From assembly GCA_944321955.1 (NCBI GenBank), contig CALUNG010000016.1, positions 1-41,198 on the forward strand: a stretch of 41,198 nucleotides of DNA, in the 5' to 3' direction. Below, one piece after another: positions 1,708 to 34,722 of this stretch. The notes beneath the pieces were generated by a model. The model was not told the DNA's origin. It searched no databases and saw nothing but the letters and a program-made list of their open reading frames with translations. The DNA is from an uncultured Alistipes sp. Its GTDB lineage: Bacteria > Bacteroidota > Bacteroidia > Bacteroidales > Rikenellaceae. Made by a program: the position numbers and the translations under genes. Numbering within the stretch: the first letter of the stretch is position 1; the number at the start of each line of letters is the position of its first letter.

Positions 1708-2967
1708 TTACTGTTTGTTTATGACGATCGAGTCCAGTTGTACGATGCGCATGCTGTCGGGTACGTCACCGTTGAGCTCGGCCACGATGCGGTCGCGGAC
1801 GAACTCGAATGCTTCGCGATTTGCATCCGAAATAGGCTCGGTAGGCTCCTGCGGTATCTTGAGCGGGTTGATCGGCTTGCCGCCCTTCCATACGCGGAAG
1901 TCGAGGTGCGGGCCGGTCGAAAGTCCCGTGCTGCCGACGTAACCGATGATGTCGCCCTGCGAAACGCGTTTGCCCTGAACGATACCCTTGGCAAACTTGC
2001 TCAGGTGCAGGTATCCGGTCATCATTTTGTTGGCATGCTTGATCTTTATGGTGTTGCCGCCGCCTCCGCCCCATCCGCGGAAGGTTACCACACCGTCTGC
2101 GACGGCACGTACGGGCGTACCTTTCGGCGCTGCATAGTCGACGCCGTGATGCGGGCGGTAGCGCTTGAGTACGGGATGGTATCGTGCGTTGGAGAATTTC
2201 GAACTTATGCGGGTGAACTTCAGTGGAGCCTTTAGCATCTGCTTGCGCAGGCTGGCGCCGTCATACTCCCAGTACTGTATCTTGTCGCCCTGCTTGAACG
2301 GTATGGCGTATATATCCTTGCCTCCGTGGTGGAACTTTGCTCCCCAGATCCGGCCTACACCGACCGAAAGCGTGTCGACGAACTTTTCGTCGTATATGAC
2401 TGTGAAGTTGTCGCCCTTCTGTACGCCGAAGAAGTCGACAGTCCATTGATATACGTCCTCGAGTTCGGCAGCCAGCGAGTAGGGCAGACTGTCCTTGATG
2501 ATCGCTCCCCAGAGCGAGCTCTCGATTTCGGCACTGCGTTTGGTACGGCGCAGAGTTATGGGACGCTCTCCCGTGCGTACGCTCACCGAATCGCCGACGA
2601 ACCCGAATACGACATAATTGGTGATGTCCTTGTCGTACACGAGGTAATCGAGACGCGATGCGATGGAGTCTTCGAGCAGAAATGCCGTATAGCTGTTGCC
2701 GGCGCGTATCTGGCGCAACGGAAAGATCTCGCGCGAGGCCTTGTCGAGCTGGTCGACTGTCTTGGCCGATATGCCGTAGTTGAACAGTATGTCGCTCAGG
2801 GTTTGTCCGTATTTGACTTCGTCGCGTTCGAGCGTATAGTCGTCGGCGATGATTCCATATTCGATTTTGTGTTGTTCTTCGACCGGCTGCTCCTTTTTCT
2901 GTGGTGTGCAGGCTACGGTCAGGCCGAGCGCGGCCACCGTAAATAGTTTTATGGCATTGTGTTTCAT
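1708..2967 (-). CDS. M23 family metallopeptidase lipoprotein (peptidoglycan hydrolase-like)
   Basis: The ATG at 2967 gives 419 residues with a lipoprotein signal ending LTVAC (Cys20). A -7 promoter box sits at 2974-2981, so the longer frame upstream is not the real start. Residues about 40-110 form a LysM/OapA-like region (KYGQTLSDILFNYGI). The LytM/M23 domain follows: HHGVDYAAPKGTPVRAV holds the HxxxD zinc motif, MTGYLHLS the second His, and GPHLDFRVW the last motif. There HxH is replaced by HxD (His354, Asp356), an unusual third zinc ligand. It is probably a periplasmic murein endopeptidase or divisome activator. It is the first gene of the operon that continues with the PPOX-like protein, ispD and the PH-like protein. 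Confidence 0.92.
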   Translation of the reverse strand: MKHNAIKLFTVAALGLTVACTPQKKEQPVEEQHKIEYGIIADDYTLERDEVKYGQTLSDILFNYGISAKTVDQLDKASREIFPLRQIRAGNSYTAFLLEDSIASRLDYLVYDKDITNYVVFGFVGDSVSVRTGERPITLRRTKRSAEIESSLWGAIIKDSLPYSLAAELEDVYQWTVDFFGVQKGDNFTVIYDEKFVDTLSVGVGRIWGAKFHHGGKDIYAIPFKQGDKIQYWEYDGASLRKQMLKAPLKFTRISSKFSNARYHPVLKRYRPHHGVDYAAPKGTPVRAVADGVVTFRGWGGGGGNTIKIKHANKMMTGYLHLSKFAKGIVQGKRVSQGDIIGYVGSTGLSTGPHLDFRVWKGGKPINPLKIPQEPTEPISDANREAFEFVRDRIVAELNGDVPDSMRIVQLDSIVINKQ

Positions 2968-2973
2968 ATCACG

Positions 2974-2981
2974 CAAAAGTA
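2974..2981 (-). promoter_or_regulatory. -7 box TACTTTTG for the M23 operon
   Basis: Read on the minus strand, TACTTTTG matches the Bacteroidota -7 consensus TAnnTTTG and ends only 6 nt before the ATG at 2967. Transcription would therefore start at or next to the start codon. No convincing -33 TTTG was found. Confidence 0.55.
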
Positions 2982-3063
2982 CGAAAAAAAAACGAGAAGG
3001 GGGCATGACATCCGGTATTTTGACATTGCTATTTGGTCGGTTCGGCGGTTTTGGCTCCAAAGT

Positions 3064-3094
3064 TTTGGCATTAGAGCTATTTTTGTTATCTTTG
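3064..3094 (+). promoter_or_regulatory. Promoter of lpxK-punA-ssb operon
   Basis: TTTG at 3064-3067, a 19-nt spacer, then TATCTTTG at 3087-3094: both elements and the spacing fit the Bacteroidota housekeeping promoter. It lies 18 nt before the ATG at 3113 and so supports that start rather than the longer open frame. Confidence 0.8.
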
Positions 3095-3112
3095 AAAAAT
3101 AGTTCGGACGTA

Positions 3113-4153
3113 ATGGCGGATTTTTTTAAGAAAATAGCGGCTTGTTGTTATGAAATGGGGGTACGTTTCCGCCATTTTCTCTTCGACACGGGCGTGCTCA
3201 AGAGCGAAAAGTTCGATATTCCGATAATATGTGTCGGCAACATAACCGTAGGAGGTACGGGCAAGACCCCGACGGCCGAGATGATTGTCGACTACATGTC
3301 GCAACATTATCATGTGGCCCTGCTGTCGCGCGGATACGGCCGCCGTACCCGCGGATATCGCGAGGTGTCTCTCTCGGATTCGTACCGCGATGTGGGTGAT
3401 GAACCGTTGCAGATCAAGTTCAAATATCCGCAGACGGTGGTGGTAGTGTGTGAGAAACGCGTCAATGGCATACGCCGCATCATGGCCGAACATCCCGAGG
3501 TCGATCTGATAGTCATGGACGACGGATTCCAGCACCGCTATGTAGAGCCGCGCGTCAATGTCATTGTCGTGGATTCGACGCGCCCCGTGGAGCACGATCA
3601 CATGTTGCCCTACGGTACGTTGCGGGATGTGCGTTCGTCGCTCGACCGTGCGCACTACTTCATAGTCACCAAGTGCAGCGACAGCATGTCGCCGCTCGAC
3701 CGCATGCTCATGCGCAAGGAGCTGCGCCACATAGCGTATCAGCGTATCTATTTCATGCGTTACGAATCGCTGCCTATGCGTCCCGTTTTCGCCGATGCAA
3801 GGGGTGAAGGCGTACCGAACTTCAGCGAGGTCATAGCGATGTCCGGAATAGGCAATCCCATGGTTTTCATTCGCGGATTGAGGCTGCATTACCGTGTCGT
3901 GGACGAATTGAGGTTCGACGACCACCATGTCTATCGTGTACGCGACCTGCATGCAATGGAACGGATGTTGGATCAGCATCCCGATGCCTATATCGTTACG
4001 ACCGAAAAGGATGCCGTGAAGATATTCGGCAGCCGCAAGGTTTCGGAAAGGTTGCGCGACAGATTGTATTATGTTCCCGTAAGAATGACTTATATCGAGG
4101 AGTCCGACAAGGATTTCCTCCAAAATTTGGAAAAAGATGTTAGAGGAGATTAA
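3113..4153 (+). CDS. lpxK: Tetraacyldisaccharide 4'-kinase
   Basis: LpxK phosphorylates the 4' position of the tetraacyldisaccharide 1-phosphate precursor to make lipid IVA, at the inner face of the inner membrane. The P-loop NITVGGTGKTP is preceded by PIICVG (residues about 39-53). Other family marks are LLSRGYGRRTRGY, GDEPLQIKFK and the DDGFQHR motif (Walker B region). The protein is 346 residues, the normal length. The ATG at 3113 fits both the promoter box ending at 3094 and the family start. The 3' end overlaps punA by 17 nt. Confidence 0.95.
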   Translation: MADFFKKIAACCYEMGVRFRHFLFDTGVLKSEKFDIPIICVGNITVGGTGKTPTAEMIVDYMSQHYHVALLSRGYGRRTRGYREVSLSDSYRDVGDEPLQIKFKYPQTVVVVCEKRVNGIRRIMAEHPEVDLIVMDDGFQHRYVEPRVNVIVVDSTRPVEHDHMLPYGTLRDVRSSLDRAHYFIVTKCSDSMSPLDRMLMRKELRHIAYQRIYFMRYESLPMRPVFADARGEGVPNFSEVIAMSGIGNPMVFIRGLRLHYRVVDELRFDDHHVYRVRDLHAMERMLDQHPDAYIVTTEKDAVKIFGSRKVSERLRDRLYYVPVRMTYIEESDKDFLQNLEKDVRGD

Positions 4154-4943
4154 GAAAACGGCCGACTTCATAAAGGCTCGGACCGAAAACTTCACGCCCG
4201 AAGTCGGGATCATTCTCGGCACGGGGCTCGGCGATTTTGCCGACAATATCGACGAACGCTATTCGCTCGACTACAAGGAGATTCCCGGATTCCCCGTATC
4301 GACGGTCGAGGGCCACAAGGGTCGCCTGATCTTCGGCACGATCGAAGGACGCAGGGTAGTGGCCATGCAGGGACGTTTCCATTACTATGAGGGATATACG
4401 ATGCAGCAGGTGACATTCCCAGTCAGGGTGATGAAGCTGCTGGGAATCGAGTATCTGTTCGTTTCGAATGCCAGTGGCGGTATCAATCCGACGTTCCGCG
4501 TCGGCGATCTGATGATAATCACCGACCACATCAACCTGATGCCGAATCCGTTGATCGGCAGGAACCTGTCCGAACTCGGACCGCGTTTTCCGGACATGCA
4601 CAACTGCTATGACCGCGGGCTGATAGCCAAAGCCACGGCAATAGCAGAGGAGGCCAACATCAAACTGCAGTATGGCGTATACGTGGGCAGTACCGGACCT
4701 ACTTTCGAGACGCAGGCCGAATACCGCTATTTCAAGAGTATCGGCGGCGATGCGGCCGGCATGTCGACCGTTCCCGAGGTGATCGTGGCGCGCCACATGT
4801 CCTTACCCGTATTTGCCGTATCGGTCATCACAAACTGCGGTCTGAGCGACGAGAAGGGAGATCATGAGGATGTGCAGCGCCAGGGACGGAAGGCCGGCGT
4901 GAAGATGGCCGAACTCTTCGTGAAACTGTTAAAACAATTGTAA
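4137..4943 (+). CDS. punA: Purine nucleoside phosphorylase
   Basis: This enzyme cleaves purine nucleosides with phosphate into base and ribose 1-phosphate (salvage). At 268 residues it fits the trimeric PNP/MTAP family. Marks include the phosphate-binding ILGTGLGDF near residue 26 and VEGHKGRL. NASGGINPTFRVGDLMIITDHINL, around residue 110, holds the conserved ribose/phosphate loop. GPTFETQAEYRYF and AAGMSTVPEVIVARHM lie near the C-terminal half. It starts inside the end of lpxK and is followed 1 nt later by ssb, so it is the middle gene of a three-gene operon. The functional link with its neighbours is not obvious. Confidence 0.95.
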   Translation: MLEEIKKTADFIKARTENFTPEVGIILGTGLGDFADNIDERYSLDYKEIPGFPVSTVEGHKGRLIFGTIEGRRVVAMQGRFHYYEGYTMQQVTFPVRVMKLLGIEYLFVSNASGGINPTFRVGDLMIITDHINLMPNPLIGRNLSELGPRFPDMHNCYDRGLIAKATAIAEEANIKLQYGVYVGSTGPTFETQAEYRYFKSIGGDAAGMSTVPEVIVARHMSLPVFAVSVITNCGLSDEKGDHEDVQRQGRKAGVKMAELFVKLLKQL

Positions 4944-4944
4944 T

Positions 4945-5421
4945 ATGATCAACAAAGTAATACTTGTGGGCAATGTAGGTATGGATCCCGAAGTCCGCAC
5001 GACCGAATCGGGGGTCAAGGTGGCGCGTATACGTCTTGCCACGACCGAACGACTTTTCGACCGTCAGGCCAATGAAACCAAGGAGCATACCGAATGGCAT
5101 ACCGTCACATTGTGGCGCGGTCTGGCCGATGTGGTCGACAAATATGTGCGCAAGGGATCGCAGCTCTATATCGAGGGGCGCCTGCGTACACGCGAGTGGA
5201 CCGACAAGGATAACCAGAAACGTTACACGACCGAGATTCTGGCCGATGACATGAAACTGCTGGGCCGCCGCGGCGACAACCAGCAGCAACAGCAGCAGCC
5301 GTCTTATTCGTCATCGCAGAACTCCGGCGGATATTCCCGTCCGGCACAGGCACCGGCACCTCAGCCGCAACAGCAGCCTATTGCGGCACCGGCGGAGGAC
5401 CCGGACGATCTGCCGTTCTGA
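4945..5421 (+). CDS. ssb: Single-stranded DNA-binding protein
   Basis: A 158-residue SSB. The OB fold (MINKVILVGNVGMDPEVR, then WHTVTLWRGLADVVDKYVRKGSQLYIEGRL) occupies about residues 1-110. It is followed by a low-complexity linker rich in Gln, Ser and Pro, and ends with the acidic tip DPDDLPF that docks repair and replication partners. It binds ssDNA as a tetramer. Last gene of the lpxK-punA-ssb operon, followed by a perfect 16-bp hairpin at 5442-5478. Confidence 0.96.
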   Translation: MINKVILVGNVGMDPEVRTTESGVKVARIRLATTERLFDRQANETKEHTEWHTVTLWRGLADVVDKYVRKGSQLYIEGRLRTREWTDKDNQKRYTTEILADDMKLLGRRGDNQQQQQQPSYSSSQNSGGYSRPAQAPAPQPQQQPIAAPAEDPDDLPF

Positions 5422-5530: not shown

Positions 5531-7561
5531 TTACCAGATGATTACGCGCTCCTTTTCGGGCATGAACATCGCTCCGTCCGTAATGCCGAAGGCATCGTAG
5601 AACTCCTGAATGTTACGCAGCGTGGCGTTGACACGCCACTTGCCGAGCGAGTGAACGTCGAGCTTGGTCAGGCGGGCAATCTCCTCGTCGCGGATGTTCT
5701 GCGCCCACAGCGTCGCATATCCCAGATAGAAACGCTGCTCGGCCGTAAATCCGTCGATCGGGGCCGGCTTGTTGTCCCCGAGAGCATTCTGCAGGGCCGT
5801 GTAGGCTATGCGCAGACCTCCCTGATCGGCTATGTTCTCGCCGAGGCACAATGCACCGTCGGCGTGGAGCGCGGGCTGTCCGTCCTTTGCGGGAAGAACC
5901 TCGATGGCGTTGAACTGCTCGACCAGTATGTCGGTCTTCTTCTTGAAGGCTTCGGCATCTGCATCGGTCCACCAGTTGTTCATGTTGCCGTCCTTGTCGA
6001 ACTGACGACCCTGATCGTCGAATCCGTGCGTCATCTCGTGGCCGATAACTACGCCTATGGCACCATAGTTCACGGCGTCATCGGCATCGGGATTGTAGAA
6101 AGGCGGCTGAAGTATAGCGGCAGGGAAGCATATCTCGTTGCTGCCGGGGTTGTAGTATGCATTGACGGTCTGTGGCGACATGAACCATTCGCTCTTGTCC
6201 ACGGGTTTGCCGAGTTTCGAGAGGTTGTCGGCCGTATACCACTTGCCGATGGCTACGATGTTGTCCCAGTATGATTTCTTGGGATCTACCGTAAGGGTGG
6301 AGTAGTCCTTCCACTTGTCGGGATAACCTATCTTTACGGTGAAGGAAGCCAGTTTCTCCTGAGCGCGGGCCTTCGTTTCGTCGCTCATCCAGTCGAGAGC
6401 CGCGATGTGCTGGCCGAGAGCCGTCTGAAGGTTCTTTACCAGTTCGAGCATGCGGGCCTTGTCCTTCTCCGAGAAGTATTTGGCAACGTAGATCTCGCCT
6501 ACGGCCTCGCCGAGCGATCCGTTGGGTACGGACATGGCGCGCTTCCAGCGGGGTTGAATCTCCTGCTTGCCCGACATGGTCTTGCCGTAGAAGTCGAACG
6601 ATGCGTTTACGAAGTCATCGCTGAGGTAGCTTGCGGCGCTGTTGATATACTGTGCAGCCAGATAGTGGGCTATCTTCTCTACCGGAGCCGTCTTCAGAAT
6701 CTTGTTTGCTGCCTCGATCGACGACTGTTGCGTTACTATTATCGTGTCGAAGTCGCCGAGACCGACAAGCTTGTAGTACTCGGCCCAGTTCAGTGCGTCG
6801 TATTTCTTCTCGAAATCGGCTCTGGAGACGGGATTGTACTGAGCCTGCATGTCGCGAAGCTGAACGTTCGACCAGAATGCCTCGGCAAGCGTCGTCTCGA
6901 TCTCCATTACATCGTTCACGGCTTCGCCGACTTCACTCTCGGGCATGCCGACAAGGGTGAACAGTTTGTTCAGGTACTCTTTGTATGCCGTACGTATCTG
7001 CTCGTTTTCAGAAGTCAGATAGTAGTCGCGGTCACCCATTCCGAGTCCGCTCTGACTCGCATATACGGTGTTCATGCTGCTGTTCTTCAGGTCGGCATCG
7101 ACTCCTATGCCGAAGAACGGATTTGCCGTGGATGCATGCATCTCGGCAATGGCTGCGGTCAGCTCGCTGCGATCGCTGATCTTGAGCAGACGATCGACAC
7201 CCGCAAGAACAGGAGTTGCTCCCTCGGCGTTAAGACGAACGGAGTCGAGTCCCATTTTATAGAGGTCGGATATTTTCTGCTCGACGCTACCCGGTTCGGC
7301 CGTCTTCTCGGCCATCTCCTTGAAAAGTTCGTTGATGCGAACCTTGTTGTTCTCGCCGATAACATCGAATGCACCGTAACGGCTGTATTCGGGCTTGAGC
7401 GGGTTGCGCTGCTGCCAGCCTCCGGTAGCATACTGGTAGAAGTCCTCGTTCGGAGCAACCGACAGATCGAAATTGTTCATGTCGATTGCCGGGACCTTGC
7501 TCTGTTGCTCCTGACAGCCGGCCAGAATCGCGGCTGTGGCTAAAAGAATAAGTCTCTTCAT
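5531..7561 (-). CDS. pepO: M13 family (neprilysin/PepO-like) metallopeptidase lipoprotein
   Basis: A zinc endopeptidase of the neprilysin family, 676 residues from the ATG at 7561. The N-terminus MKRLILLATAAILAGCQEQ has a lipobox with Cys15, so it is a lipoprotein of the periplasm or surface. The N-terminal M13 domain begins near FDLSVAPNEDFYQYATGGW. The catalytic domain holds VIGHEMTHGFDDQGRQFD (HExxH zinc motif) and GENIADQGGL (ExxxD, third zinc ligand). The C-terminus ends VIIW, close to the CxxW end of the family but without the Cys. It is likely a single-gene transcript; the deaminase gene lies 127 nt upstream. Confidence 0.93.
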   Translation of the reverse strand: MKRLILLATAAILAGCQEQQSKVPAIDMNNFDLSVAPNEDFYQYATGGWQQRNPLKPEYSRYGAFDVIGENNKVRINELFKEMAEKTAEPGSVEQKISDLYKMGLDSVRLNAEGATPVLAGVDRLLKISDRSELTAAIAEMHASTANPFFGIGVDADLKNSSMNTVYASQSGLGMGDRDYYLTSENEQIRTAYKEYLNKLFTLVGMPESEVGEAVNDVMEIETTLAEAFWSNVQLRDMQAQYNPVSRADFEKKYDALNWAEYYKLVGLGDFDTIIVTQQSSIEAANKILKTAPVEKIAHYLAAQYINSAASYLSDDFVNASFDFYGKTMSGKQEIQPRWKRAMSVPNGSLGEAVGEIYVAKYFSEKDKARMLELVKNLQTALGQHIAALDWMSDETKARAQEKLASFTVKIGYPDKWKDYSTLTVDPKKSYWDNIVAIGKWYTADNLSKLGKPVDKSEWFMSPQTVNAYYNPGSNEICFPAAILQPPFYNPDADDAVNYGAIGVVIGHEMTHGFDDQGRQFDKDGNMNNWWTDADAEAFKKKTDILVEQFNAIEVLPAKDGQPALHADGALCLGENIADQGGLRIAYTALQNALGDNKPAPIDGFTAEQRFYLGYATLWAQNIRDEEIARLTKLDVHSLGKWRVNATLRNIQEFYDAFGITDGAMFMPEKERVIIW

Positions 7562-28209: not shown

Positions 28210-28242
28210 TCTGCAGGAACAGCCGGATTCCCGGCGTGTTTT

Positions 28243-28273
28243 TTTGCCTGTTCCGATTAAAAGGTTAATTTTG
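28243..28273 (+). promoter_or_regulatory. Promoter of the caspase/WG-repeat cluster
   Basis: TTTG (28243-28246), a 19-nt spacer and TAATTTTG (28266-28273): a near-ideal Bacteroidota promoter. The ATG at 28317 lies about 43 nt beyond the -7 box. Confidence 0.8.
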
Positions 28274-28316: not shown

Positions 28317-31025
28317 ATGAAAAGACTACTTGCATTTGTGATTTTATGTATGACGGCCGTTGCTGCTGCCGGTCAGAATCTGAGACCCGAACAGGCGAGC
28401 AATGGCAAATGGGGATTTGTGAATACCGATGGCAAACGGGTTGTCTATTGCATCTACGACAATGTATGGAATTTCAGCGAAGGCCTTGCCGCAGTTGAAT
28501 TAAACGGCAAACGGGGATATATAAATACCGAAGGCAAACGGGTTGTCGATTGCATATATGACGACGCATTTTCTTTCAGAGAAGGCCTTGCCGTAGTTGA
28601 ATTAAACGGCAAACGGGGATATATAAATACCGAAGGCAAACGGGTTATTGATTTCATTTACGACAATGGAGGCCCTTTCAGCGAAGGTTTTGCCGTGGTC
28701 ATGTTAAACGGTAAATGGGGCTATATAAATACCGAAGGCAAACGGGTTATTGATTTCATTTACGACAATGGAGGCCCTTTCAGCGAAGGTCTTGCCGGGG
28801 TCATGTTAAACGGCAAATGGGGCTATATAAATACCGAAGGCAAGCAGGTCGTCGATTTCATTTACGATTACGGAGAGCCTTTCAGGGGAGGCTTTGCCAA
28901 AGTCACGATAAACAACAGATGTGGATTTGTGAATGCCGAAGGCAGGCAGATAGCTGCATGCAAATATGATAATGTGTATGATTTCAAAAACGGGTTTGCC
29001 AATGTCAGACTGAATGGCAAGTTAGGAGTCATAGACACTGCCGGGCGTCAGATTACAGAGTGCAAATACGACTGGATTGGCGATTACAATGAAGAAAATG
29101 GGCTTGCTTCCGTGGGTATTGATGGGAAATACGGAATGATAGATACTGCGGGCAGGCAGATTGTCGAATGCAGGTACGACTGGAATATCAAGGTCGATGA
29201 CGGGCTTGTAATCGTGTCGATCGACGGGAAATACGGTATTGTCAATACAGACGGCAAACAGATTGCCGATTGTATATATGATGTGATTTTCATTTTCAGG
29301 GACGGATTTGCCAATGTAAAGTCGGACGGTAAATACGGAGCCATAAATGCTGACGGCAAACAGGTTGCAGAGTGCATATACGATTACAATTTCGAATTCA
29401 GGGACGGTTTTGCGAAAGTTAGTCAAAACGGCAGGTACGGCCTTATAGACACCGAAGGCAAGACCGTTATTCCATGCCGTTATGACCGGGTGTATGACAT
29501 GCATGACGGATTGATAAGGGTTTTGAGCGATAAATCGTATTATTACAAGGATACGCAGGGAAAGACTGTTTCAGGACCCTATTATTCCCATGCCACCGAC
29601 TTTGAAGGGGGCATTGCCGAGGTCAACATAAACGGCAGGATGTGCTATATCAATAAGATCGGACGCAGGTTCGATACGGCCGAGGAGTGTCGGATGTCGC
29701 AGCTTCCGTTCTCGGAGTATGCCAAACTCTATGTTGAGAAACGAATCAACGACTGGCAGAAAAAAGGGGAGTTCGAAACCACTGCCGACTGGCAGGCGCG
29801 CGTCAATCGGCAGACCCGCAGCCGCAAGATCGAAGAACTGACACGTGAGGCCGAACGTGAGTTTATTGCCGACCGTTCGGCTGGGTTGAATCCTGAGTAT
29901 ACGCTCGGCCGATACGATGCCGACAATCAGGTTTTCCTGATTGAGTGCAATGGCAAGGACCTGCTCGTTCATGTTCCGTACAAGGAGGCTCAGAATTTCA
30001 AGGAGAAGTGGGGTATAATAACCAAAACACCGAAATACTTTATCGAAGATGATCAGCTTGGCCTCGCGGAGGTGACTTTTGCCCTGTCCAAAAAGAAATC
30101 ATACAAATACAGCAACCAGGCGTCGCTCAACTATACCGTCGCACAGGTCGACTATAACTTCGATCCCATTGAGATCGTTCTGAACGACGATGGCGGCAAG
30201 AGCGGAAGCCAGAACATATCGACGGTAAACATCTCGGTGGGCAAGTCCGATGTCGATGTCGACATACCAGCAGGACGCAGCAGCAACGCCGAATCGACCT
30301 TTGCCGTGATTATCGCCAACGAGAACTACCAGCGTGAATCGGCCGTGGAGTTCGCACGCAACGACGGCGAGACATTCCGCAAGTACTGCACCACGACGCT
30401 CGGGCTGCCCGAGAAGAACGTGCACTACGTGGCCGACGCCACTCTCAACAACATGCGGGCCGAGGTCGACTGGGTGTGCCGCGTCGCGAAGACATACGGA
30501 GGCTCGGCCGACATCATCTTCTACTATGCCGGTCACGGCATACCCGACGAGTCGACACGCGAATCGTATCTGCTGCCCGTAGACGGTTACGGATACAACG
30601 TCTCGACTGGATACAAGCTGTCGGACCTCTACGCCAAACTTGGCGGCGTTCCGGCAGGCTCGGTGACGGTATTCCTCGACGCATGCTTCAGCGGCGCAAC
30701 GCGCAAGGGCGACATGCTGGCATCGGCGCGCGGTGTCGCGATAAAGGCCCGTACTGACGCCCCGACGGGCAAGATGGTGGTCTTCTCGGCGGCGCAGGGC
30801 GACGAAACGGCATACCCCTACCGCGAAAAGGGACACGGACTGTTCACCTACTATCTGCTCAAGAAGTTGCAGCAGACCAAAGGCAACGTAACCTACGGCG
30901 AACTGGGCGACTACATCACCGAACAGGTAGGCCGCACGGCCATTGTCGAGAACTCGAAGCCGCAGACCCCGACCGTGACGGTCGCACCGGCCCTCGCACA
31001 GACATGGAAAAGCTTGGAATTCTGA
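28317..31025 (+). CDS. Exported WG-repeat protein with C-terminal caspase domain
   Basis: A 902-residue protein. A signal peptide (MKRLLAFVILCMTAVAAAGQ) is followed by 12 full WG repeats of 34 residues (residues 29-438) plus a degenerate one. Their pattern is NGKWGYINTEGKRVVDCIYD...F-x-EGLA-V-L. A linker (about 440-660) includes the charged helix KRINDWQKKGEFETTADWQARVN. The C-terminal caspase-type C14 domain (about 660-900) has FAVIIANENYQ, YYAGHG with His740 and FLDACFSGA with Cys790, so the dyad appears intact. I infer a periplasmic or surface protease whose repeats, probably a beta-propeller-like fold, bind a target. Its own activation and substrate are unknown. It heads a three-gene cluster. 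Confidence 0.92.
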   Translation: MKRLLAFVILCMTAVAAAGQNLRPEQASNGKWGFVNTDGKRVVYCIYDNVWNFSEGLAAVELNGKRGYINTEGKRVVDCIYDDAFSFREGLAVVELNGKRGYINTEGKRVIDFIYDNGGPFSEGFAVVMLNGKWGYINTEGKRVIDFIYDNGGPFSEGLAGVMLNGKWGYINTEGKQVVDFIYDYGEPFRGGFAKVTINNRCGFVNAEGRQIAACKYDNVYDFKNGFANVRLNGKLGVIDTAGRQITECKYDWIGDYNEENGLASVGIDGKYGMIDTAGRQIVECRYDWNIKVDDGLVIVSIDGKYGIVNTDGKQIADCIYDVIFIFRDGFANVKSDGKYGAINADGKQVAECIYDYNFEFRDGFAKVSQNGRYGLIDTEGKTVIPCRYDRVYDMHDGLIRVLSDKSYYYKDTQGKTVSGPYYSHATDFEGGIAEVNINGRMCYINKIGRRFDTAEECRMSQLPFSEYAKLYVEKRINDWQKKGEFETTADWQARVNRQTRSRKIEELTREAEREFIADRSAGLNPEYTLGRYDADNQVFLIECNGKDLLVHVPYKEAQNFKEKWGIITKTPKYFIEDDQLGLAEVTFALSKKKSYKYSNQASLNYTVAQVDYNFDPIEIVLNDDGGKSGSQNISTVNISVGKSDVDVDIPAGRSSNAESTFAVIIANENYQRESAVEFARNDGETFRKYCTTTLGLPEKNVHYVADATLNNMRAEVDWVCRVAKTYGGSADIIFYYAGHGIPDESTRESYLLPVDGYGYNVSTGYKLSDLYAKLGGVPAGSVTVFLDACFSGATRKGDMLASARGVAIKARTDAPTGKMVVFSAAQGDETAYPYREKGHGLFTYYLLKKLQQTKGNVTYGELGDYITEQVGRTAIVENSKPQTPTVTVAPALAQTWKSLEF
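28401..29630 (+). repeat. Twelve WG repeats coded by ~102-bp units
   Basis: Twelve units of 34 residues (one has 36) in register. Units 3-4 are almost identical DNA (see 28621-28824). The units are visibly AT-rich compared with the caspase-coding part downstream. Confidence 0.9.
28621..28824 (+). repeat. Near-identical 102-bp tandem duplication
   Basis: Two adjacent 102-bp copies (28621-28722 and 28723-28824) differ at only about 3 positions by eye. This marks recent unequal exchange or slippage within the repeat array and suggests that repeat number can vary. Confidence 0.88.
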
Positions 31026-31046
31026 AAAACGCGATAAATTTTTGAC

Positions 31047-31094
31047 TTATAACCCTAAAACCTCCAACCATGAAACGTCTGCTTATACTTGTCG
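31047..31094 (+). repeat. 48-bp leader/signal-peptide repeat, copy 1
   Basis: This stretch, covering the last 23 bases before the ATG and the first codons of the second WG gene, recurs exactly at 32885-32932 before the third WG gene. The first WG gene lacks it. Confidence 0.9.
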
Positions 31095-32647
31095 CCTGCA
31101 GCCTGATTGCCACGTCCGCAGCCGGACAGAAAAACATCAATGCGGCATTCGATACCGAATCCCGTATGATTGATCTTTTTTATGTTTATGCTTATGATTC
31201 CAGCGAAGGTCTTACTCCTGTTTCAATAGACGGCAAATATGGTTTCATTAATGCCGAATATAAACTGGTCATCGATTGTGTATATGATGAAGTCAGAAAA
31301 TTCTGCGACGGTTTTTCCAAAGTTGAGTTAAACGGTAAATGGGGATTTATCAACACTAAAGGCACCCGTTTTGTCGATTGCATCTATGACGAGGTCTGGA
31401 ACTTCGAAGACGGCCTTGCCGAGGTTAAATTAAACGATAAATATGGATTCGTAAATACCGAAGGTAAAAGGGTCATTGATTGTATTTACGACGATGCCGA
31501 GCATTTCGGAGACGGTCTTGCTCCAATTGAACTAAACGGCAAATGGGGATTTATTAATACTGAAGGGAAACTTGTTGTCGATTGTATCTACGACAATGCA
31601 TGGCCTTTCACTGATGGCCTTGCCAAAGTTGAATTAAATGATCGATATGGTTTTATAAACGCGAAAGGAGAACAAGTCGTAGATTGCATTTACGACGATG
31701 TCGACTATTGCCGAGAAGGCCTGGCCTCTGTTAAATTGAATCGTAAATGGGGTTATATAAACACCGAAGGTAAATTGGTAGTTGATTGCATTTACGACTC
31801 TGAATGGAGTTTCAAAGACGGCTTTGCCAAGGTTCAGATGAGCGGCAAATGGGGATTTATTAATACCGAAGGAAAACGTGTTCTCGATTGTATCTATGAT
31901 GAGATCTGGAATTTCAGCGATGGATTTGCCGTAGTTGTCTTAAACGGCAAATACGGGTATATAAACACTGAGAGAAAACTGGTTATAGATTGCATCTACG
32001 ATTTTGCCGGTAGTTTCAACGACGGCTTTGCTCGGGTTGTATTGAACGGCAAATACGGCTTTATAAACACAAGTGGAGAGCTGGTTCTCGATTGTATTTA
32101 TGAAGATTCATGGATGTATATTCACGGAGACCTTGCTGCTGTTAAATTGAATGACCTATGGGGGGTGGTAAATACCACAGGAAAATTTGTTGTCAATTGT
32201 CTTTATGACGATATTGTGGTATGGGACAACGACTTTATTGCGGTTAATTTAAATGGCAAATGGGGATTTGTAAATACTGAAGGAGACCTGGTTGCAAATT
32301 GGATTTACGACAATGTCAATGGGTTCAGCGAAGGTCTTGCGGTGGTTCAGGTAAACTATAAATGCGGTTTTATAAATACTGAGGGCAAACTGGTTATTGA
32401 TCGCATTTACGACTATGCATATGATTTCAGAGACGGTCTTGCACCGGTTAAGCTAAATGGGAAATGGGGCTATATAAATGCTCAAGGCAAACTGGTAATC
32501 GATTACATTTACGACTATGCCAACTGTTTCGTTAACGGCATGGCTAAAGTCCACCAAAACGGGAAATGGGGTGTTATAAATACCAAGGGGGAACGTATTG
32601 TCGATTTCATGTATGACGAACATGTTGTTATGGAAATCATAGATTGA
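31070..32647 (+). CDS. Exported WG-repeat protein, repeat-only paralogue
   Basis: A 525-residue protein with a signal peptide (MKRLLILVACSLIATSAAGQ) and a half repeat. About 14 WG repeats of 34 residues follow to the C-terminus, of the type NGKWGFINTEGKLVVDCIYD. There is no catalytic domain. Cys is conserved in most repeats (VVDCIYD). It starts 44 nt after the caspase-bearing gene with no clear promoter between, so it is probably co-transcribed. It resembles that protein's repeat half and the third gene closely. I infer a gene duplication. Function is unknown; a partner, decoy or substrate of the caspase protein is possible. Confidence 0.9.
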   Translation: MKRLLILVACSLIATSAAGQKNINAAFDTESRMIDLFYVYAYDSSEGLTPVSIDGKYGFINAEYKLVIDCVYDEVRKFCDGFSKVELNGKWGFINTKGTRFVDCIYDEVWNFEDGLAEVKLNDKYGFVNTEGKRVIDCIYDDAEHFGDGLAPIELNGKWGFINTEGKLVVDCIYDNAWPFTDGLAKVELNDRYGFINAKGEQVVDCIYDDVDYCREGLASVKLNRKWGYINTEGKLVVDCIYDSEWSFKDGFAKVQMSGKWGFINTEGKRVLDCIYDEIWNFSDGFAVVVLNGKYGYINTERKLVIDCIYDFAGSFNDGFARVVLNGKYGFINTSGELVLDCIYEDSWMYIHGDLAAVKLNDLWGVVNTTGKFVVNCLYDDIVVWDNDFIAVNLNGKWGFVNTEGDLVANWIYDNVNGFSEGLAVVQVNYKCGFINTEGKLVIDRIYDYAYDFRDGLAPVKLNGKWGYINAQGKLVIDYIYDYANCFVNGMAKVHQNGKWGVINTKGERIVDFMYDEHVVMEIID

Positions 32648-32884
32648 TTATCATGCTTGTGTTGAATTAAAAGGCCGACAGGCTTGATCGATACAGAATA
32701 GTAAAAATATCTTATAAAAAAGAGGGATAATTTAATCAGCGTTTTGTCGCATGCCAATACCGCAGTCGGAGGAGGCCGATCAGGCTGAATGAATATATGA
32801 GACACTTTGTTATTTTGCTGACAATGAATGATGTATAAATTACAGCGTAAATCAGATAACTGGCAACAACAACGAATATTTTAT

Positions 32885-32932
32885 TTATAACCCTAAAACC
32901 TCCAACCATGAAACGTCTGCTTATACTTGTCG
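32885..32932 (+). repeat. 48-bp leader/signal-peptide repeat, copy 2
   Basis: Identical to 31047-31094. The 237 bp before it (32648-32884) hold no gene and no clear -7 box, and they are not shared with the shorter 31026-31046 gap. Confidence 0.9.
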
Positions 32933-34722
32933 TCTGCTGCCTGATTGCCACGACCGCTGCCGGGCAGGATCAGAAACCGAATCAGAATCATGACAAAACC
33001 GAGGAAGATGGTTATATAGAAGAATGTGGCGACTTCGTTGAATACGATACAAATTATAATTTCAACGAAGGTCTTACCCGTATCGTATTAAACGGTAAAT
33101 GGGGATTTGTAAATCACGAAGGCAAACGGGTCATTGATTGCATTTACGACAATGTCGAGGATTTCAGTGATGGCCTCGCCAAAGTTAAATTAAACGATCG
33201 ATATGGTTTTATAAACGAGAAAGGAGAATTGGTTATCGATTGCATTTATGACTTTGCTTGGGTTCTCAAAGACGGCATTGCCATAGTTAAATTAAACGAT
33301 AAATATGGAATAGTCAATACCGAAGGCGAAATGGTCGTAGATTGCATCTACGATGGCGCATGGTCTTTCAGCGAAGGCCTTGCCAAAGTTCAATTAAACG
33401 GCAAATATGGATTTATAAATACAGAAGGAAAACAGATTGTCGATTGCATTTACGACTTTGCCTGGTTTTTCAGAGACGGCCTTGCCAAGGTTCAGTTGAA
33501 CGGCAAATGGGGTTTTATCAATACCGAAGGTAAACAGATTGTCGGTTGCATTTACGACAAGATTGATGAGTTCAAGGACGGCATTGCCAGAGTTCAATTA
33601 AATGGCAAGTATGGACTTATAGATGCCGAATTCAGGCAGGTTTTGGATTGCATTTACGACTTTACATATGATTTCAGCGAGGGGCTTGTCGCAGTTGAAT
33701 CAAACGGTAAATGGGGTTTTGTCGATACCGAAGGCAAACAGGTTATGGATTGCGTCTACGACTTTGCCGGTAGTTTCAACGAAGGTCTCGCAGCGGTTCA
33801 ATCAGATGGTAAATGGGGTTTTGTCAATACTGAAGGCAATCTGGTCGTTGATTGCATTTATGACAGTACCATTTGGTATTTCAAGAACGGCTTTACTCAA
33901 GTTAAATTAAACCATAAATGGGGCGTTATCAATGCTGAAGGGAAACGTGTCATCGATTGCATTTATGATGAAGTCAGTGATATCAATGAAGGAATCGTTA
34001 AAGTCCAGTTAAACGGCAAATGGGGCTTTGTCAATACTGAAGGCAAACAGGTTGTCGATTGCATATATGACAAGATTGATGAGTTCAAGGATGGCTTTGC
34101 CAGAGTTCAGTTAAATGGCAAATATGGGTTTATAGATACCAAATTCCAATCGGTTGTAGATTGCATTTACGACTTTGCCGTAAATTTCAAAGACGGCCTT
34201 GCGGAGGTTCAGTTAAACGGTAAGCGTGGTATTATCGATACCGAATTCAAACAGGTTGTCGATTGCGTATATGACGAGATTAGTGAGTTCGAAGACGGCC
34301 TTGCCGGAGTTAAGCTGAACGGTAAATGGGGTGTCGTAAATACGGCAGGAAGATTGGTTGCCAATTGCATATATGACGAGATTGATGAGTTCAAGGAGGG
34401 TCTTGCCAGAGTTAAGCTGAACGGTAAATGGGGCTTTGTCAATACTGAAGGCAAACAGGTTGCCGATTGCGTATATGATGAGGTTGATAAGTTCAAAGAC
34501 GGCCATGCCAGAGTTAAGTCAAACTGTAAATGGGGCTATATAAATACCCAAGGCAAACCGGTTATTGCTTGCATTTACGACTATGCCGGCAATTTCTGCA
34601 ATGGTTTTGCTGATGTTTGCATAAACAAGAAATGGGGTGTTATAAATACCCAAGGTAAACGGGTTGTCGATTGCATTTACGACAAGCGTATTTGTGTTAC
34701 GCTTGTTTTTATTCGTATTTAA
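32908..34722 (+). CDS. Exported WG-repeat protein, repeat-only, reading through a terminator
   Basis: A 604-residue protein: a signal peptide (MKRLLILVVCCLIATTAAGQ), an acidic spacer (about residues 21-60), then 16 WG repeats, almost all with Cys in the VVDCIYD position. Blocks are duplicated: the unit at 33556 (YDKIDEFKDGIARVQLNGKYG) recurs at 34069, exactly 513 bp later. The last repeat is cut short and ends in the unrelated DKRICVTLVFIRI. Those codons form a terminator hairpin with a T run (34682-34710) before the stop at 34720-34722, so the mRNA may end without a stop codon. The original stop seems to have been lost. Function is unknown. Confidence 0.9.
   Translation: MKRLLILVVCCLIATTAAGQDQKPNQNHDKTEEDGYIEECGDFVEYDTNYNFNEGLTRIVLNGKWGFVNHEGKRVIDCIYDNVEDFSDGLAKVKLNDRYGFINEKGELVIDCIYDFAWVLKDGIAIVKLNDKYGIVNTEGEMVVDCIYDGAWSFSEGLAKVQLNGKYGFINTEGKQIVDCIYDFAWFFRDGLAKVQLNGKWGFINTEGKQIVGCIYDKIDEFKDGIARVQLNGKYGLIDAEFRQVLDCIYDFTYDFSEGLVAVESNGKWGFVDTEGKQVMDCVYDFAGSFNEGLAAVQSDGKWGFVNTEGNLVVDCIYDSTIWYFKNGFTQVKLNHKWGVINAEGKRVIDCIYDEVSDINEGIVKVQLNGKWGFVNTEGKQVVDCIYDKIDEFKDGFARVQLNGKYGFIDTKFQSVVDCIYDFAVNFKDGLAEVQLNGKRGIIDTEFKQVVDCVYDEISEFEDGLAGVKLNGKWGVVNTAGRLVANCIYDEIDEFKEGLARVKLNGKWGFVNTEGKQVADCVYDEVDKFKDGHARVKSNCKWGYINTQGKPVIACIYDYAGNFCNGFADVCINKKWGVINTQGKRVVDCIYDKRICVTLVFIRI
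33556..34174 (+). repeat. 513-bp higher-order duplication in the third WG gene
   Basis: A ~105-bp stretch starting at 33556 recurs at 34069 with high identity over its first 60 bases. The spacing is five repeat units plus one codon, so a block of about five repeats was probably copied as one. Confidence 0.7.
34682..34710 (+). terminator. Intrinsic terminator inside the end of the third WG gene
   Basis: Stem ACAAGCGTA (34682-34690) with TACGCTTGT (34698-34706), loop TTTGTGT, followed by TTTT. The open frame runs through it to the TAA at 34720-34722. Confidence 0.72.

Follow-up and report, generated by a model that had tools for sequence, protein, structure and literature searches.

An apparently exported WG-repeat caspase of an uncultured Alistipes and a Bacteroidales family with a constant protease half and varied front modules

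Little is understood of what bacterial caspases do, and the discussion known to us deals mostly with death or defence in the cytoplasm. The gingipains of Porphyromonas (clan CD, family C25) are exported surface proteases of Bacteroidota. Polymorphic toxins combine a constant N-terminal part with a variable C-terminal toxin. Bacterial metacaspases are described as fused to repeat domains, with WD40, TPR and Sel1 the commonest partners, and some prokaryotic members have helices that are possibly signal peptides (PMC3501461); the main text of that source does not contain the terms 'KWG' or 'WG_beta'. A caspase-like domain is sometimes the toxin domain of polymorphic toxins, also in Bacteroidetes, and the abstract of the same source gives the constant N-terminal part and varying C-terminal toxin (PMC3482391). 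EADs are reported as small domains common to neighbouring conflict-system proteins (PMC7159879), and domain exchange is reported for gingipain-type proteases (PMC5266723). Repeat-domain metacaspase fusions and exported caspase-like toxin domains are already known. On proteins combining WG repeats with a caspase, no paper was found in the open-access library searched, and the domain that we call LNK had no name by which to search for it.

The locus belongs to an uncultured Alistipes sp. (GCA_944321955.1; 2.06 Mb in 30 contigs). We examined positions 28317-34722 of the window, a 41,198-nt stretch of contig CALUNG010000016.1 (C16), in which all features described lie on the + strand. As the preliminary description had it, three consecutive genes carry WG repeats and the first alone a caspase domain. 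Gene A (28317..31025; 902 aa) comprises a signal-peptide-like start, 12 WG stretches in an array at 28407..29636 (residues 31-440), LNK at 29697..30281 (residues 461-655, with a well-modelled core at about 465-594) and a C14 caspase/metacaspase-like domain at 30282..31022 (residues 656-902). The WG-only genes B (31070..32647; 525 aa) and C (32908..34722; 604 aa) follow with 13 and 15 WG stretches. The starts of all three proteins, assessed by eye, resemble signal peptides, which is consistent with the export proposed earlier. The strong promoter and the terminator claimed for the cluster also have counterparts: a Bacteroidota-type promoter match (28243..28273) upstream of A and a terminator-like hairpin (34681..34707) that overlaps the end of C. 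The promoter match is retained in G006, a genome of the same genus that we treat as a sister species: its aroB shares 89% identity with that of the window, against 51-71% in six other genomes tested. A further terminator-like hairpin (28222..28235) lies 3' of a DUF3108-like gene and 5' of A. As a single promoter match precedes A and a hairpin closes C, the three genes are probably read as one transcript.

All three proteins match the WG-repeat family PF14903 at 370-604 bits (cut-off 25.6), with a unit of 34 residues or 102 bp, and the array has no good match among solved folds. G3, Y17 and D18 are invariant in 36/36 units of A, B and C, and positions 19, 21, 22, 24, 29 and 31 show about 3 bits of variation each over the same units. 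Such a pattern resembles that of a binding surface built from repeats. Their pN/pS is 0.78, against 0.30 elsewhere (39 unit pairs of 75% identity or more), and because it stays below 1, diversifying selection is not demonstrated. The DNA indicates that repeat units are still undergoing duplication, with copies that are 95% (A3/A4), 89% (C5/C10) and 100% identical (D6/D7, from the WG-only gene D on contig C13 of the same genome). A cysteine ladder is seen in the exported-looking WG proteins (window 28317-34722; L026:2059-4998), where Cys occupies unit position 15 in 16/16 matched units of C, 10/14 of B, 8/11 of A and 16/22 of D. Across the window genome's apparently exported genes this residue is found in 51/71 matched units, and in other fetched WG genes, where the pattern misses many units, in 7/25.

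The caspase domain of A matches the Peptidase C14 profile at 71.8 bits (cut-off 21.4). His740 (codon 30534-30536) and Cys790 (codon 30684-30686), reported earlier as apparently intact, are indeed present as a catalytic dyad, which is retained in 19/19 aligned sequences. In the structure model, the dyad lies in a formed metacaspase/MALT1-like fold, with a poorly modelled active-site loop. This loop, residues 793-811 after Cys790, has low model confidence, as does the relative arrangement of the domains, and contains Arg796, Lys797, Arg805 and Lys810. Basic and lacking clear order in the model, it is a plausible place for self-cleavage. Two acidic residues are invariant in 16/16 aligned sequences: Asp683, on the domain's first helix, and Asp788, which precedes Cys790 by two positions. 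We take Asp211 of TbMCA2 to stand likewise two residues before the catalytic Cys, and hence to be the counterpart of Asp788. Together with Asp95 of the first helix, Asp211 lines the proposed S1 pocket of TbMCA2 (PMC4357240). By analogy, the similar placement of Asp683 and Asp788 makes a basic P1 residue (Arg/Lys) likely for A. Against the EACC1-associated caspase model NF047832, A scores 65.4 bits, below the NCBIfam cut-off of 140, and in a PADLOC scan of A, B, C and the DUF3108-like protein, an anti-phage caspase model is matched weakly, at 28.9 bits along part of its length.

LNK corresponds to no Pfam family. Modelled alone, it has a mean pLDDT of 77.5, rising to about 90-96 over residues 465-594, and its predicted topology (helices, then beta strands, and one helix in between) has no convincing resemblance to solved structures. 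LNK and C14 together form the constant C-terminal half of a family. A combined LNK-C14 profile at E 1e-30 matches 20/180 genomes of the genus and at least 83 of 393 sampled genomes of the order (completeness 80 or more; in most cases up to four candidates scored per genome), many in either set by the caspase part alone. Five LNK-caspase genes were found in the window genome by profile search. The module ahead of LNK-C14 differs between members: WG repeats, TPR, BspA-type LRR_5, or LysM accompanied by a weak WG match. Some members have next to none, L105 and L109 having 40 residues ahead of LNK, so that a front arm is not essential.

Front-module classes were assigned from Pfam matches (WG, TPR, LRR_5, LysM) on scanned proteins and then by similarity grouping. 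LRR_5 was matched in L040, and the other three members of its cluster were classed by similarity; TPR was matched in the two proteins scanned (L039, L087) of 11 TPR-type members, the rest following by similarity cluster. The WG label on the tree includes six genes (L029, L041, L042, L076, L079, L100) with 0-1 matches to the WG HMM built here, which were assigned to this class because their front modules are similar; for L029 and L079 the Pfam WG match does not reach cut-off, and a LysM domain stands at the front of L079. On a C14 tree of the 52 genes, the distribution of the four classes of front module takes 11 changes, where the minimum is 3 and shuffling gives a mean of 24.9, so that front modules are clustered yet not bound to a single origin each. 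Individual swaps are less certain, since 20/49 inner branches are weak and the starred branches alone require fewer changes. The fusion gene E (L026) has WG units resembling those of the window genes, and its caspase falls outside the main WG set, near the TPR-type caspases, at an open fork of the tree. The 52-gene set left out L031, L034 and L046 (contigs shared with the G006/G129 loci), L077 (caspase truncated by a contig end), the LNK-covering matches G233:C255, G212:C56, G252:C54 and G486:C825, G532:C22 (part of LNK) and matches to the caspase part only. A WG, CARDB and caspase protein lacking LNK was also seen at L091:9492-12011.

Gene A itself contains a recombination boundary at 30105, seen as an identity step against its paralogue on contig C26. 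DNA identity between the two genes is 53-78% in LNK up to this position, 97-100% over the next ~480 bp and 92-97% after that; at the boundary it is 62% over 399 bp to the left and 98% over 186 bp to the right. The C26 gene and its G006 orthologue, compared over the matching flanks, are 83% and 84% identical, with no step. A step in the first comparison and none in the second indicate that the caspase half was copied between A and the C26 gene after the species split, and on these sequences we conclude that the caspase half of A is exchanged with its paralogue. The step may alternatively reflect an assembly swap of the two 3' ends, because the two genes show no difference along about 360 bp and contigs C26 and C13 terminate inside a caspase gene near the shared stretch. 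Under either explanation, the gene ahead of the WG-only genes is a fusion. L028:1-1643 (C26) and L026:1-177 (C13) look like two ends of one caspase gene. The C26 and C13 contigs are probably adjacent, making a row of fusion, fusion and WG-only genes.

We read the family, with confidence that is evenly balanced, as exported proteases that are activated by a ligand and whose recognition arms can be swapped; on this view the WG-only genes supply arms without a protease. A would then be an exported metacaspase-type cysteine protease of three modules (WG arm, LNK and C14), whose arm would bind a ligand in or outside the envelope. The LNK-protease half would stay constant across the Bacteroidales family and the arm would be exchanged by recombination, as the boundary at 30105 may illustrate. 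Ligand binding would most likely gather or unlock molecules so that the protease self-activates, possibly by cutting within its own basic, disordered loop behind Cys790. The active enzyme would cut neighbouring envelope or outside proteins, presumably after Arg or Lys. B and C would be locally duplicated copies of the front part of a gene of this kind; binding a similar ligand but cutting nothing, they could extend or damp the response.

The preliminary description suggested that a WG/caspase fusion and the WG-only genes downstream of it form a system. The arrangement stands: it is present in the window and recurs on contig C13 (L026), where fusion E (220-2013) is followed by WG-only D (2059-4998) in the same order. 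That the trio is a conserved system is not supported. Among the matches listed, 3/52 LNK-caspase genes (window, L026, L043) have a WG-only gene within the flanks fetched, and outside the window genome the count is 1/47 (L043), the lack of such a neighbour being uncertain at loci cut by contig ends such as L028, L075, L102, L108, L109 and L112. The rule raised against the system, that relatives of the caspase gene never have adjacent WG paralogues, is thus not strictly true (3/52), and the association is nearly confined to the window lineage. In five relatives, 0/15 ORFs with a WG match and no caspase-family match share a contig with a fusion gene. At L043:7167-10772, a 353-aa WG-only gene lies 1 kb upstream of an LNK-caspase gene that has no WG repeats.

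The leader and signal-peptide segments of B (31037..31129) and C (32875..32967) are near-copies, 91% identical over 93 nt, and similar leaders open E and D on C13. D is absent from the corresponding G006 locus, which lacks the stretch that on C13 separates a block ending at 2023 from one that starts at 5996. Because the WG-only genes carry the leader and signal peptide of the fusion family, and D is missing in G006, tandem duplication accounts for the arrangement; B and C look, from their sequences, like local duplicates of a fusion gene's front arm and not like a conserved partnership. A gene with a signal-peptide-like start follows D from about L026:5017, beginning in the stretch absent from G006. 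In G129, the ruvB and aroB matches are 98 bp apart, which leaves no room for the trio, and the 16 kb around them contain no match to A or to the DUF3108-like protein; the trio may have been gained in the window lineage or lost in G129. The G006 contigs L115 and L116 break off at the edges of the A-B-C island (window 34698 and 28300), as if the repeat-rich island had broken the assembly.

It is a real though somewhat doubtful possibility that tandem gene duplication and instability of the 102-bp repeat left B and C as by-products that play no part for the protease, and that A works alone. The near confinement of WG-only neighbours to the window genome and the absence of D from G006 agree with such an origin, as does the occurrence of WG proteins in genomes where no LNK match was found (G026 and G029, which match protein C). 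Duplication alone fits less well with B and C as long, intact reading frames that retain a signal peptide, with the constraint on most repeat positions (pN/pS 0.30), and with an order of fusion then WG-only gene found twice in one genome. An envelope housekeeping or nutrient protease, with the WG arm merely anchoring A to wall or surface and B and C as structural surface proteins, is rather unlikely in our judgement. The LysM domain at the head of L079 would suit it, and the Cys at position 15 could give stiff cross-linked rods, but a conditional trait accords better with the patchy presence (the 20/180 genus genomes, with several incomplete MAGs among them) and with module exchange.

A more regular gene neighbourhood is seen in another branch of the family. 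All 11 TPR-type LNK-caspase genes found (L039, L083, L084, L085, L087, L088, L089, L097, L099, L101, L103) have a same-strand upstream neighbour that carries LNK and no caspase, at distances from overlapping to 42 bp. The partner protein is about 690-700 aa long (one was called shorter, at 452 aa) and has WD40-like beta-propeller matches in 3/3 partners scanned (L039, L087, L089), the others being assigned by similarity cluster. An LNK profile built from LNK-caspase proteins alone recovers these partners at E 1.7e-14 to 6.3e-8. Across 30 genomes, most of them chosen for carrying the LNK-caspase family, 49 LNK matches were obtained, of which three (G532:C6, G508:C9 and G365:C11) could be assigned neither to the LNK-caspase nor to the partner class. 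Judged by sequence and gene order, the WD40-like/TPR-type pair is a better conserved partnership than the A-B-C trio. B and C are not equivalent to the WD40-like partners because they lack LNK.

By analogy, a domain common to a protease and its protease-less neighbour looks like a homotypic adaptor. This can be extended to an exported apoptosome-like system, in which LNK would join WD40-like, TPR, WG and LRR sensors to the metacaspase by a CARD-like logic outside the cytoplasm, with Alistipes-like arms reshuffled by recombination and spare protease-less arms kept as competitors; we regard so broad a scheme as decidedly improbable. A polymorphic-toxin-like weapon, with A as exported protease toxin and B or C as immunity proteins, is very improbable: Sec-signal caspase-like domains with repeats do occur among polymorphic toxins, Bacteroidetes included (PMC3482391), but the LNK-caspase family reverses their constant and variable ends, 49/52 loci have no WG-only neighbour, and B and C look like A's arm, not like an inhibitor.

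A gut-bacterial family of apparently exported caspases with a constant protease half and swappable fronts is a concrete, testable protein set, and one branch adds a paired protease-less partner with the new domain LNK in common. Should the arms select the targets, the family would amount to a modular protease system acting outside the cell in the gut; should LNK prove to be a homotypic adaptor, it would represent an independent caspase-activation platform.

Compared with known systems, A can be set beside the prokaryotic metacaspases and orthocaspases (clan CD), with which it shares the C14 fold, the His/Cys dyad and fusion to repeat domains; it differs in carrying LNK, a segment with no Pfam match, between arm and protease. 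Gingipains are alike in clan, export, occurrence in Bacteroidota and recombination-rearranged adhesin or arm parts. They belong to C25, whereas the domain here is C14, running almost to the C terminus of A, with no match to a type IX C-terminal secretion domain in Pfam or NCBIfam. Polymorphic toxins with caspase-like domains resemble A in Sec-type export, in joining repeats to a caspase-like domain and in their occurrence in Bacteroidetes. In the LNK-caspase family, by contrast, the C terminus is constant and the N-terminal module variable, and no known immunity family was found in the neighbours scanned (B, C, DUF3108-like, ruvB, aroB). From EAD systems the family differs in its signal-peptide-like starts and in the window's B and C, which are without LNK; RuvB is the only NTPase among three window neighbours scanned. 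A small domain shared between neighbouring genes, as in EAD/NTPase systems, is therefore not seen for LNK in the window and appears in the 11 TPR-type relatives only, which are like EAD and apoptosome-like systems in that LNK is common to the caspase protein and its protease-less neighbour.
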